A stretch of DNA of 64,000 nt from Allostreptomyces psammosilenae (GTDB lineage Bacteria; Actinomycetota; Actinomycetes; Streptomycetales; Streptomycetaceae): the NCBI RefSeq assembly GCF_013407765.1, contig NZ_JACBZD010000002.1, forward strand, positions 134,001 to 198,000, in the 5' to 3' direction. The position numbers were made by a program, and so were the translations under genes. Below the pieces are notes generated by a model that saw only the letters and a program-made list of their open reading frames with translations, did no database searches and was not told the origin of the DNA. Positions 36,504 to 44,926 of this stretch are shown here, one piece after another. The first letter of the stretch is position 1. Each line of letters opens with the position of its first letter.

Positions 36504-38012
<1,509 letters not shown>

Positions 38013-38314
38013 GCGTTTCCCTCGCTGCGATCGCTGCGATGGTCCATGCGAGAGGCACTGCCCCCACCCGGGTGATCGCAAACGCGTTCGTGGCCGTGCG
38101 GGGCGCCCTCCGTGCACCCTGCGCCGCCGTGCGACCACGGGGAGGTGACGAAGATCTCAGCGCGGCGCGCCGGAAGGGGAACGGCCGGGTCCGGTGCGGC
38201 GGGTCCGCGCGATCGGCGTCGGCGGTGGCCCGCCCGCCGGTGCGGGCCCGGGCGGGCCACCGCCCCGGCGGCGCCCGCGCCGGAGGGCGCCCCGCGCGGC
38301 CGGCCCGGCGCCGG

Positions 38315-39379
38315 CTACCCCGCCAGCCCGGCCGGCAGCACCTCCTCCAGGGAACGGCGGTGCGCCAGGTACTCCGGCACCCGCACCATCGGCGGACGCT
38401 CGTCCGCCGCCACCGCGTGCACCTTGGGGCGGAAGCCCTGCCCCGGCACCCGGTCGAACTGCACCAGGGTGTCGCCGAGGTCGGCGGTCAGGCCGCCGTC
38501 CGGGCCGGTGCCGATCCGCCGCGGCTGCGGCGTGAGCCGGGCCTGCCGCTCCACCGCCGTGCGGTGGATCGTCGCCGCCATCCGCCCCAGCGCCTGCCCG
38601 TCCTGGTGCCGGTGCCGCCGCACCCCGACGTCCACCTGCGCCATCGCGTCCAGCCCGACCGCGTGCAGGGTGTCCACCAGTAGCCCCAGCTCCACCCCGT
38701 AACCGCAGGGGAACGGGAGCTGCTCCAGCAGCGAGCGGCGCGCCGCGTACTCGCCGCCGAGCGGCTGCACGAAGCCGGCCAGCCGGGGCCAGTACAGGTT
38801 GATCAGCGGACGCGCGACCAGCTCGGTGACCCGCCCGCCACCGGCCGGCTCCACCGAACCGCCCTGCTCCAGCGGCCGGTCGTACATGGCCTTGACGAAG
38901 TGCACCGGCCCGCCGTCGGCCGCGCTGGTCTCGGTGAGCAGCGGGCCGATGATCCCGGTGACGAAGTCCGAGGAGAAGTCCCTCAGGTCGGAGTCGACGA
39001 AGCAGATGATCTCGCCGCGCGCCGCCAGCAGCGAGCGCCACAGCACCTCGCCCTTGCCGGGCACCACCGGCCAGTGCGGCAGCAGCTCCTCGCGGGTGAC
39101 CACGCGCGCGCCGGCGGCCCGGGCCACCTCGCGGGTGCCGTCGGTGGAACCGGAGTCCACCACCAGCACCTCGTCGACCAGCGGTACCTCGTGCATCAGG
39201 TCGGCGCGGATGGTGCGCACGATGTCGCCGACCGTGGCCTCCTCGTTCAGGGCAGGCAGGACGACGCTGACGGTTCCGGCCCGTCCGGCGGCCCGCTTCG
39301 CCGTCAGCAGCCGCCGGACGGGCCGGTCGGCCACGCTCCAGGAGCGCCGGAGCAGCCAGCGGTTCACCTCGTCGTGCAT
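38315..39379 (-). CDS. gpgS: Glucosyl-3-phosphoglycerate synthase
   Basis: ATG 39379 with GGAAGG upstream gives 354 residues, the normal length for GT81 enzymes. Motifs: SVVLPALNEEATVGDIVRTI, VDEVLVVDSGSTDGTREVA, PGKGEVLWRSLLAA, and the metal-binding FVDSDLRDF. The acceptor-side sequence PFPCGYGVELGLLVDTLHAVG and VDVGVRRHRHQ are family-specific. It makes glucosyl-3-phosphoglycerate from NDP-glucose and 3-phosphoglycerate, the first step to glucosylglycerate or methylglucose lipopolysaccharide. It lies behind otsA on the same strand, a compatible-solute group. Confidence 0.92.
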   Translation of the reverse strand: MHDEVNRWLLRRSWSVADRPVRRLLTAKRAAGRAGTVSVVLPALNEEATVGDIVRTIRADLMHEVPLVDEVLVVDSGSTDGTREVARAAGARVVTREELLPHWPVVPGKGEVLWRSLLAARGEIICFVDSDLRDFSSDFVTGIIGPLLTETSAADGGPVHFVKAMYDRPLEQGGSVEPAGGGRVTELVARPLINLYWPRLAGFVQPLGGEYAARRSLLEQLPFPCGYGVELGLLVDTLHAVGLDAMAQVDVGVRRHRHQDGQALGRMAATIHRTAVERQARLTPQPRRIGTGPDGGLTADLGDTLVQFDRVPGQGFRPKVHAVAADERPPMVRVPEYLAHRRSLEEVLPAGLAG

Positions 39380-39859
39380 GGGGGCACCTTCCGTTGGTCT
39401 TCGGGGCCGCCGCCGCGGCGGCGGACCGGTCGTCGTTCCGCGGGACCCCCGGGGGCGGCCTGGCCGCCAGCGCCTGGCGAGCGCGCCGGCCGGGGCGGGG
39501 AGCGGGGAGCGGTACGGGACCGGGGAACAAAGGGGGATGGTACGGAGAGGGGTCGAACGCGCGGTGTCCATCGCGCGGAGGGCGGTGCGGGCGGCGTCGT
39601 CGGCACCCGCACGGCCCGGTGCCGGCGGCTGCGCCGGTCACCCTGAGGTGTGTTGTTTCCGCCTCCGACCGGCAGAAACATTTATTGACAAACAGGGGCA
39701 AATCAGGCTGTGCCGTCTCGGTTACTGGTCACCGTCGGCCCACGCACCGCTCCCGGGTTAGAGTTTGCTTCCGGGAGTGGACCTTTCGGTGTCCGTCCCG
39801 AGACAAACGTGTTGCCGCCGCTGATCTCCCCGTGCAGGTCCGGCGGCCGGCGACTCCAC
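39380..39859. other. Divergent intergenic region
   Basis: It separates gpgS from the riboswitch leader of the threonine-synthase-like gene. A lower-GC patch at about 39650-39700 (TTTATTGACAAACAGG) contains a TTGACA-like -35 and is probably the promoter of the riboswitch transcript or of gpgS. No gene is supported. Confidence 0.45.
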
Positions 39860-40025
39860 AGAGCTCATCCAGAGGGGCAGAGGGAACGGCCCGTTGAAGC
39901 CCCGGCAACCCTCCAGCCGGTCCACTCGTAGCCGGTCCGCGTGACGCGGGCCCGCGGCGAGGCCGCCGGCGGGGAAGGTGCCAAGTCCGTCCCGCGGCGT
40001 ACCCGCCGTGGGGAAGATGAGGAGA
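39860..40025 (+). ncRNA. SAM riboswitch (S-box type)
   Basis: The outer helix CTCATC (39864-39869) pairs with GATGAG (40016-40021). Inside are the conserved S-box blocks CCAGAGGGGCAGAGGGA, ACGGCCC...GAAGCCCCGGCAACC, and AAGGTGCCAA. The order and spacing match the SAM-I/SAM-IV clan, with a long variable arm between. It ends about 15-20 bases before the TTG start, so it could block ribosome access or cause termination when S-adenosylmethionine binds. Confidence 0.88.
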
Positions 40026-40039
40026 GAGAGGGCCTCGCC

Positions 40040-41347
40040 TTGGCTTTGTCAGCCGCCACCCCCGCATCGCCGACCACGTCCACCACCACGGCCCCGGACG
40101 CCACCAGCCCGGCCTCGTTCGGCAATGCCGTCGCGCTGTCGTGCCGGGAGTGCGGGGAGCGCTTCCCGCTCGGTCCGATCTTCGCGTGTACCAGCTGTTT
40201 CGGCCCCCTCGAAGTCGCCTACGACTACCCGGCCGGTGCGATCACCCGGGAGTCCATCGCGGCCGGGCCGAACTCGATCTGGCGCTACGCCGCGCTGCTG
40301 CCGGTGCCCGCCGGCGTCGCCGAGCGGCCGAACCTCAACCCCGGCTTCACCAGGCTGGTCCACGCCCGCAACCTGGCCCGCGAGCTCGGCATGCGGGCGT
40401 TGCACGTCAAGGACGACTCCGGCAACCCCACCCACTCCTTCAAGGACCGGGTGGTGGCCATCGCGCTGGAGGCCGCCCGCACCTTCGGCATGAACACGCT
40501 GTCCTGCTCCTCCACCGGCAACCTGGCCGGCGCCGTCGGCGCCGCGGCGGCCCGGGCCGGCCTGCGCTCCTGCGTGTTCATCCCCTCCGACCTGGAGGCC
40601 GGCAAGCAGGTGATGGCCGCCGTCTACGGGGGCGACCTGGTCGGCATCGACGGCACCTACGACGACGTGAACCGTTTCTGCTCCGAGCTGATCGGCGACC
40701 CGATCGGCCAGGACTGGGGCTTCGTCAACGTCAACCTGCGGCCGTACTACGGCGAGGGCTCCAAGACCCTGGCCTACGAGATCTGCGAGCAGCTCGGCTG
40801 GCGCATCCCCGAGCAGATCGTCATCCCGATCGCGTCCGGCTCCCAGCTCACCAAGATCGACAAGGGGCTCGCCGAGCTGGTCAAGCTCGGCCTGGTGGAG
40901 GACCGCCCGTACCGCATCTTCGGCGCGCAGGCCACCGGCTGCTCCCCGGTCTCGGCCGCCTTCAAGGCCGGCCACGACGTGGTCCGCCCGGTGCGCCCCG
41001 ACACCATCGCCAAGTCCCTGGCGATCGGCAACCCGGCCGACGGCCCGTACGTGCTGGACATCTGCCGCCGCACCGGTGGCGCGGTGGAGGACGTCTCGGA
41101 CGCCGAGGTGGTCGACTCCATCAAGCTGCTGGCCCGCACCGAGGGCATCTTCGCCGAGACGGCCGGCGGCGTCACCGTCGGCGTGCTGCGCAAGCTGCTG
41201 GCCTCCGGCGCGCTCGACCCCGAGGCCGAGACCGTGGTGCTGAACACCGGCGACGGGCTGAAGACGCTGGACGCGGTCGCCGGGACCGGGCCGTCCGCCG
41301 TCATCAAGCCGACCCTGGACGCCTTCCGCGCCGCCGGCCTGGCGTAG
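40040..41347 (+). CDS. Threonine-synthase-family PLP enzyme, SAM-controlled; possible homocysteine synthase
   Basis: A TTG start at 40040 is preferred because it follows AGAGAGG and the riboswitch; upstream frames read through the riboswitch. The 435-residue protein is a fold-type II PLP enzyme: an N-terminal Cys pair (LSCRECGERFPLG, FACTSCFGPLE), the PLP lysine in DSGNPTHSFKDRVVAIALEAA, and SCSSTGNLAGAVGAAAARAG for phosphate binding. It would normally be annotated threonine synthase. Streptomyces usually keep a separate thrC in a hom-thrC-thrB operon. A SAM riboswitch in front and a sulfur-carrier gene 75 bases behind instead suggest O-phosphohomoserine-dependent homocysteine formation. That reassignment is inference. 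Confidence 0.9.
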   Translation: MALSAATPASPTTSTTTAPDATSPASFGNAVALSCRECGERFPLGPIFACTSCFGPLEVAYDYPAGAITRESIAAGPNSIWRYAALLPVPAGVAERPNLNPGFTRLVHARNLARELGMRALHVKDDSGNPTHSFKDRVVAIALEAARTFGMNTLSCSSTGNLAGAVGAAAARAGLRSCVFIPSDLEAGKQVMAAVYGGDLVGIDGTYDDVNRFCSELIGDPIGQDWGFVNVNLRPYYGEGSKTLAYEICEQLGWRIPEQIVIPIASGSQLTKIDKGLAELVKLGLVEDRPYRIFGAQATGCSPVSAAFKAGHDVVRPVRPDTIAKSLAIGNPADGPYVLDICRRTGGAVEDVSDAEVVDSIKLLARTEGIFAETAGGVTVGVLRKLLASGALDPEAETVVLNTGDGLKTLDAVAGTGPSAVIKPTLDAFRAAGLA

Positions 41348-41422
41348 CCGCGCCACCGCGCCCGCGCGGCGCCGTCCCCCTGACTCCCCACCTCCCTCCC
41401 GCTGTCCCGAAGGGCCGAAGCC

Positions 41423-41701
41423 ATGAGCGTCTCCGTTCGCATCCCGACCATCCTGCGCACCTACACCAAGGACCAGGCCGAGGTCTCCGTGGAGGGCGGA
41501 ACCCTCCAGGAGGTCATCGACGCGCTGGAGGCCGACTACCCGGGCATCCGCGCCCGCATCCTGGACGACGCGGGCAAGCTGCGCCGCTTCGTGAACGTCT
41601 ACGTCAACGACGACGACGTGCGCTTCGCCGACGGGCTCGCCACCGCGACGCCGGACGGCGCCGGCGTGTCGATCATCCCGGCGGTCGCCGGAGGCTGCTG
41701 A
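41423..41701 (+). CDS. MoaD/ThiS-type sulfur carrier protein with C-terminal GGC
   Basis: The 92-residue protein has the beta-grasp fold pattern (SVRIPTILRTYTKDQAEVSVEGGTLQEVIDALEADYPGIRARI ... NVYVNDDDVRF) and ends SIIPAVAGGC. The carriers CysO, ThiS and MoaD end in GG, which becomes a thiocarboxylate. Here one cysteine follows, so a protease, or a Mec+-type JAMM enzyme, may need to expose GG. It closely resembles CysO. It follows the SAM-controlled PLP gene on the same strand and probably shares its transcript, so it is a candidate sulfur donor for that enzyme. Confidence 0.9.
   Translation: MSVSVRIPTILRTYTKDQAEVSVEGGTLQEVIDALEADYPGIRARILDDAGKLRRFVNVYVNDDDVRFADGLATATPDGAGVSIIPAVAGGC

Positions 41702-43153: not shown

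Positions 43154-44926
<1,773 letters not shown>

Follow-up and report, generated by a model that had tools for sequence, protein, structure and literature searches.

A SAM riboswitch, a threonine synthase paralogue and a sulfur carrier form a conserved locus of Allostreptomyces psammosilenae assigned to the MetM/MetO route of methionine synthesis

In Allostreptomyces psammosilenae, a SAM-I riboswitch leads into a gene that would be labelled thrC, and the following gene encodes a small sulfur carrier. This arrangement raises the question of whether the enzyme serves threonine or methionine synthesis. A preliminary description of the DNA had proposed that it converts O-phosphohomoserine to homocysteine, and had pointed to threonine-synthase-like homocysteine synthases reported from Streptomyces. 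This proposal is very probably right and corresponds to MetM/MetO of Hasebe et al. 2024 (doi 10.1128/aem.01247-24): according to the available part of PMC12172450, MetM in Streptomyces is a novel homocysteine synthase that converts O-phosphohomoserine, the S. albulus gene has an upstream SAM riboswitch, metO is named as well, and methionine auxotrophy is prevented by MetM. The accession given there for the S. albulus sequences is BHXC01000007. The MetM/MetO route is already known and published for S. albulus, and the locus is not new. We assign the A. psammosilenae locus to this route with a probability of roughly 93%, and its chemistry in this organism is predicted. PMC12172450, as far as its available part goes, was the only paper describing MetM/MetO in the literature searched on the pathway, and the accessible portion of PMC12452182 contains no mention of the A. 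psammosilenae locus.

Table 1. Features of the riboswitch-metM-metO locus; positions are those of the window, the whole 64-kb stretch of DNA that was analysed.
Feature	Position	Strand	Basis
SAM-I (S-box) riboswitch aptamer	39862-40023	+	Rfam RF00162, 65.9 bits
P1 of the riboswitch, CTCATC with GATGAG	39864-39869 with 40016-40021	+	Minimum-energy fold of 39862-40048, z -2.9
Putative expression platform, with start codon and purine-rich ribosome-binding region	40020-40042	+	Sequence; aptamer-to-start spacing
AGGAG (overlaps P1); AGGG; TTG start	40020-40024; 40029-40032; 40040-40042	+	Sequence
MetM, threonine-synthase-like PLP enzyme, predicted O-phosphohomoserine-using homocysteine synthase	40040-41347	+	Profile and alignment
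MetO, sulfur carrier of the ThiS/MoaD/CysO type, ending in -AVAGGC as encoded	41423-41701	+	Profile and alignment

The order at the locus was found to be riboswitch, metM and metO, with a gap of 75 bases between the two genes (Table 1). The riboswitch match covered the full length of the model (positions 1-108; gathering score 44.4, E 4e-13), and no other Rfam match in the window reached its gathering score. MetM (435 amino acids) starts 16 bases past the aptamer end; it scored 262.5 bits against the NCBIfam TIGR00260 thrC profile, above the cut-off of 167.1, and also exceeded the cut-off for Pfam PALP. MetO (92 amino acids) scored 59.2 bits against Pfam ThiS (cut-off 22.5), and its best solved relatives were 3dwg_C, which is CysO of M. 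tuberculosis, and 4n6e_B. The riboswitch, the thrC-like label and the CysO/ThiS-like carrier of the preliminary description were all borne out. GroEL is encoded downstream (43298-44926). The upstream neighbours on the minus strand are a glucosyl-3-phosphoglycerate synthase (38315-39571), which passed its NCBIfam cut-off, and a trehalose-phosphate-synthase-like protein (36504-38138), which fell short of its cut-offs.

Conservation was followed in a relatives set of 31 genomes (A. psammosilenae and 30 relatives) and in a named set from a public genome collection (the best 80 of at least 578 confirmed relatives); the two sets overlap, and their counts must not be summed. The riboswitch was present in all 31 genomes of the relatives set, 32 copies altogether, and 31 of the 32 lead into metM, the exception being a second copy in G018. 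In G030, which is 77% complete, approximately 125 bases are missing at the junction, including the aptamer end and the first metM codons. A MetO-level match was found in 31/31 of these genomes and was near metM in 30; in G022 metM is broken up over contigs, and the match lies next to its C-terminal portion. Among the best 80 named loci, the riboswitch stood ahead of metM in all 80, and MetO followed metM in 79 of the 79 that were readable, L137 ending too early. The pairing of riboswitch and metM in 31/32 and 80/80 cases, respectively, indicates that it is not due to chance. In a class sample of 148 genomes from the host's class, 108 matched MetM at E 1e-60; G037 and G052, with weak matches only, and weak second matches were dropped. 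MetM at E 1e-130 or better was present in 106/148 genomes, a lower bound because in G105 a riboswitch near the end of a contig is followed by a fragment of metM. The riboswitch preceded the matched part by 11-282 bases in 104 of these 106 genomes; in the remaining two, the match starts only at model position 155 or 165. These findings confirm that the locus of riboswitch, MetM and carrier is real and conserved.

The rest of the genome (6.65 Mb, two contigs, 98.9% complete) was searched for threonine, methionine and cysteine genes. It contains a second ThrC homologue, which is 34% identical to MetM, keeps the ordinary ThrC motifs and is encoded behind homoserine dehydrogenase (hom-thrC at C1:4083250). 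The riboswitch-led gene is thus not the only thrC of its genome; a lone thrC would, according to the preliminary description, have refuted the proposal. The thrB gene is at C1:4086463, 2.2 kb past thrC. Streptomyces usually has hom, thrC and thrB consecutively; here an SPFH/Band 7 protein (Pfam PF01145, C1:4084442-4085470) is encoded between thrC and thrB. No MetX was found in the genome, the best TIGR01392 match reaching 23.8 bits compared to 418-448 bits in relatives with full-length MetX, and a search for HTS/MetA found neither. The PF01053 family (MetB/MetC/MetY-type) gave nine rows, two of them strong, one cystathionine gamma-synthase-like and one cystathionine gamma-lyase-like. The genome checks suggested earlier, for a second thrC and for metX, metB and metY, favored the homocysteine proposal. 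A mec-cysO-cysM operon was found on C2.

The cystathionine gamma-synthase-like protein (C1:2166654) reached 655 bits against PRK07811, above the cut-off of 513, and plant cystathionine gamma-synthase uses O-phosphohomoserine. Homocysteine could accordingly be formed by transsulfuration from O-phosphohomoserine through this protein, with MetM as an auxiliary enzyme or a user of free sulfide. This explanation is improbable: no acyl-homoserine maker was found in the genome among those searched (MetX, HTS/MetA), the second PF01053 enzyme is cystathionine gamma-lyase-like and fits reverse transsulfuration, and the one SAM riboswitch detected in this genome stands ahead of metM. The separate thrC, the failure to find MetX or MetA and the published MetM all support the predicted conversion of O-phosphohomoserine to homocysteine by MetM.

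The distribution of the two routes was compared in the class sample, where MetX was called by E-value, the curated cut-off of 500 bits being reached by 0 of the 148 genomes and 0 of the 14 controls. MetX at E 1e-60 or better was present in 77/148 genomes. MetM alone was found in 64 genomes, both enzymes in 42, MetX alone in 35 and neither in seven, an anti-association with a Fisher p of 1.3e-6 that ignores kinship among the 148 genomes. The 42 genomes that keep both indicate that MetM is not a simple replacement for MetX everywhere.

MetM could also be a second threonine synthase, with an incidental SAM response and an unrelated neighbor in the carrier gene. It is above the TIGR00260 thrC cut-off, a profile that does not separate MetM from ThrC, and the best match in a model comparison was the Arabidopsis threonine synthase (Z 32.6, rmsd 2.9 over 349 residues). 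The AlphaFold model had a middling mean pLDDT of 70.4 and was therefore used for fold only, and it is on the fold only that profile search and model comparison agree. Against this reading stand the canonical thrC behind hom in the same genome, the riboswitch in 104 of the 106 class genomes with MetM, and the active site. In all 136 MetM rows, V138, L162, A163, R234, Y237, A265, S266, G267 and K272 were found, whereas the same columns hold G, T, S, N, R, G, N, A and A, respectively, in all five ThrC rows, the active-site columns having been picked after the alignment to solved ThrC was viewed. The ThrC residue set T162, N234, R237 and G265-N266-A267 (MetM numbering) occurred in 0/136 MetM rows and 5/5 ThrC rows. 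Four solved bacterial ThrC side with the ThrC rows at V138, L162, R234 and Y237, as read by eye from the alignment. In Thermus ThrC, the residue opposite Y237 is a phosphate-binding arginine; in MetM, R234 sits three places before Y237. Common to all rows are K135, the PLP lysine by alignment, and N161, and T403-G404-x-G-L-K is present in all but two gapped ones. In a quick tree, the 136 MetM rows were split from the five ThrC rows by a fully supported branch that carries a long-branch warning. We consider a second threonine synthase very unlikely, and a threonine synthase paralogue with a chance riboswitch was rejected, given the thrC elsewhere in the genome, the differing residues and the conserved arrangement.

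All 136 MetM rows also carry C35, C38, C50 and C53 (CxxC...CxxC, residues 35-53), possibly a zinc ribbon or a carrier docking site. The ThrC of A. psammosilenae is without room for this segment; the room is too small in four of the five ThrC, and the fifth runs off its locus, the ThrC rows of the residue comparison having been cut at the match start. As a mark that tells MetM from ThrC, the four-cysteine segment is weakened by the NF006050 threonine synthase model, which matches MetM from residue 31 on, so that other named threonine synthases may carry the segment as well.

The 3' strand of P1, GATGAG, is followed by GAGAGAGAGGG and then by the start codon region. In the best 80 of at least 578 confirmed relatives, the first in-frame start past the aptamer was an ATG at 12-19 bases in 80/80 loci, the spacer contains a second purine run, and ATGGCTGT lines up by eye with TTGGCTTT of A. 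psammosilenae. Spacing was more varied in the class sample, where P1 ends were located with a simple motif that clearly misplaced them in several rows. In five readable class rows the ATG comes just 6-8 bases after the end of P1, so the likely ribosome-binding site there is GAGGAG or GAGGGG overlapping P1. In a single-sequence fold P1 forms, and the pairing partners of the AGGG run extend into the start codon. The abutment or overlap of P1 with the ribosome-binding region suggests translational control of metM. Terminator-type control was rejected on grounds of space: only 16 bases separate the aptamer end from the start codon, too few for a separate terminator in front of metM. The second SAM-I riboswitch of G018 (C30:26603-26739, plus strand) was without metM in the stretch read, and the next large plus-strand frame encodes an MFS transporter. 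Ten SAM-I matches in the class sample were not directly upstream of a counted MetM (G103:C241, G105:C351, G054, G060, G145:C24, G094, G084:C13, G032, G062:C10 and G113); three of them (G032, G062 and G113) scored under the cut-off, and two (G103:C241 and G105:C351) are followed by metM fragments at the ends of contigs.

The C-terminus of MetO was found to be variable, and that of A. psammosilenae is encoded as -GGC, with one Cys past the Gly-Gly. In the 79 readable named loci (best 80 of at least 578), 43 ended in -GG, 33 in -GGC and three otherwise, so that a single Cys was the tail in 33 of the 36 tailed MetO of these relatives. The relatives set (n=31) gave 15 -GG, 15 -GGC and one other, and 34 class loci, two rows of which were read by eye, gave 27 -GG, five -GGC, one -GGA and one -GGCA. 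A selected C-terminal Cys, suggested by the single Cys of most tailed MetO against the varied tails of CysO, was considered and set aside: the change from GGCTGA to GGCTGCTGA is a single 3-base duplication, the tree calls for at least 25 changes of tail state, and mutational bias therefore explains the Cys tail equally well. In the available part of PMC3227635, the CysO thiocarboxylate is formed on the last glycine of the GG motif and Mec hydrolyses the CysO-cysteine adduct. If MetO works like CysO, its -GGC forms probably need trimming, and Mec is the natural candidate, because a -GGC end equals the CysO-cysteine adduct. Tails also vary in CysO: 23/31 CysO were tailed after the Gly-Gly, including that of A. 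psammosilenae, which ends in -GGAR, so CysO too may need trimming.

Whether metM always has its own carrier was read from 55 class metM loci (L239-L293), a non-random choice spread over families. MetO was present in 34, two were at a contig edge, and 19 were without it over at least 840 bases downstream; thus metO was absent beside metM in 19 of 53 readable loci, and a dedicated carrier is not universal. Presence of MetO changes at least six times on the tree. A MetO search was then compared in 43 class genomes, 14 metO-bearing, 19 metO-less and ten chosen by family whose metM loci were unread. In 14/14 metO-bearing genomes, metO was at its place by metM with 63-79% identity, and the second match had 53-64%. 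The best carrier match in 17 of the 19 metO-less genomes had 48-60% identity, the level of CysO; of the remaining two, both 82-84% complete, G148 gave a weak match and G103 none. Several metO-less genomes had further, more distant carrier-like matches, and the ten genomes chosen by family had best matches of 49-61%. The carrier locus was read in 16 of these genomes (11 metO-less, five chosen by family), and each time the carrier was closer to CysO and stood beside mec and cysM; MetX was also unmatched in 13 of the 19 metO-less genomes. CysO or free sulfide may thus feed MetM, and where metO is absent CysO may serve both pathways.

The 19 of 53 loci without metO and the 16 of 16 CysO-like carriers beside mec and cysM are also what would be seen if MetM works with CysO besides or instead of MetO, MetO being a dispensable CysO duplicate. 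This is possible but the less likely course, as MetO follows metM in 79/79 readable named loci (best 80 of at least 578) and is found in 31/31 genomes of the relatives set, which suggests a dedicated role in the host's family. As a tentative and still doubtful extension, MetO would be optional and derived from CysO, CysO alone would feed CysM and MetM in many Actinomycetes, and Mec would both mature -GGC MetO and recycle CysO. The MetO tails, the overlap of P1 with the ribosome-binding region and the metO-less genomes may perhaps already be covered in Hasebe 2024.

Under the MetM/MetO reading, Hom and ThrB would produce O-phosphohomoserine. The JAMM protease Mec, encoded in one operon with cysO and cysM, would remove the extra encoded Cys of MetO, and an E1-like enzyme, putatively of the MoeZ type, would then thiocarboxylate the C-terminal glycine. 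MetM, we infer, would eliminate phosphate in a PLP-driven reaction and add sulfur at the gamma carbon, giving homocysteine that would be methylated to methionine. High SAM would close P1 beside the ribosome-binding region and thereby lower metM-metO translation.

Four known systems come closest to this scheme. In the HcyS route, a MetY-type enzyme acts on O-acetylhomoserine, and the carrier HcyS loses a C-terminal alanine to a protease. In S. albulus, the 2024 work of Hasebe and colleagues is said to place metO downstream of metM, with the carrier thiocarboxylated. As judged from the available part of PMC12172450, the A. psammosilenae locus resembles that of S. albulus in its threonine-synthase-like, here predicted, homocysteine synthase with an upstream SAM riboswitch; it differs in the TTG start and the encoded -GGC tail of MetO. 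A protein thiocarboxylate as sulfur source for methionine, likewise proposed here, is described for HcyS in the accessible part of PMC6225789. The CysM/CysO/Mec system of M. tuberculosis, according to the part of PMC3227635 available, also pairs a PLP enzyme, whose substrate is an O-phospho amino acid, with a ThiS-type carrier that MoeZR activates. Among solved structures CysO is the closest to MetO; unlike MetM/MetO, the M. tuberculosis system makes cysteine from phosphoserine, and A. psammosilenae has its own mec-cysO-cysM. ThrC (TIGR00260) shares the fold and PLP lysine of MetM and also uses O-phosphohomoserine, but MetM differs from the A. psammosilenae ThrC in its fixed active-site changes and N-terminal four-cysteine segment.

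The threonine synthase label, which follows from passing TIGR00260, hides a methionine route whose enzyme is present in 106 of 148 genomes of the class, and the residue set together with the upstream SAM-I riboswitch would let annotators tell MetM from ThrC. If CysO serves MetM in metO-less genomes, one carrier would link cysteine and methionine synthesis, and a double role of Mec, if true, would tie methionine output to the cysteine machinery.
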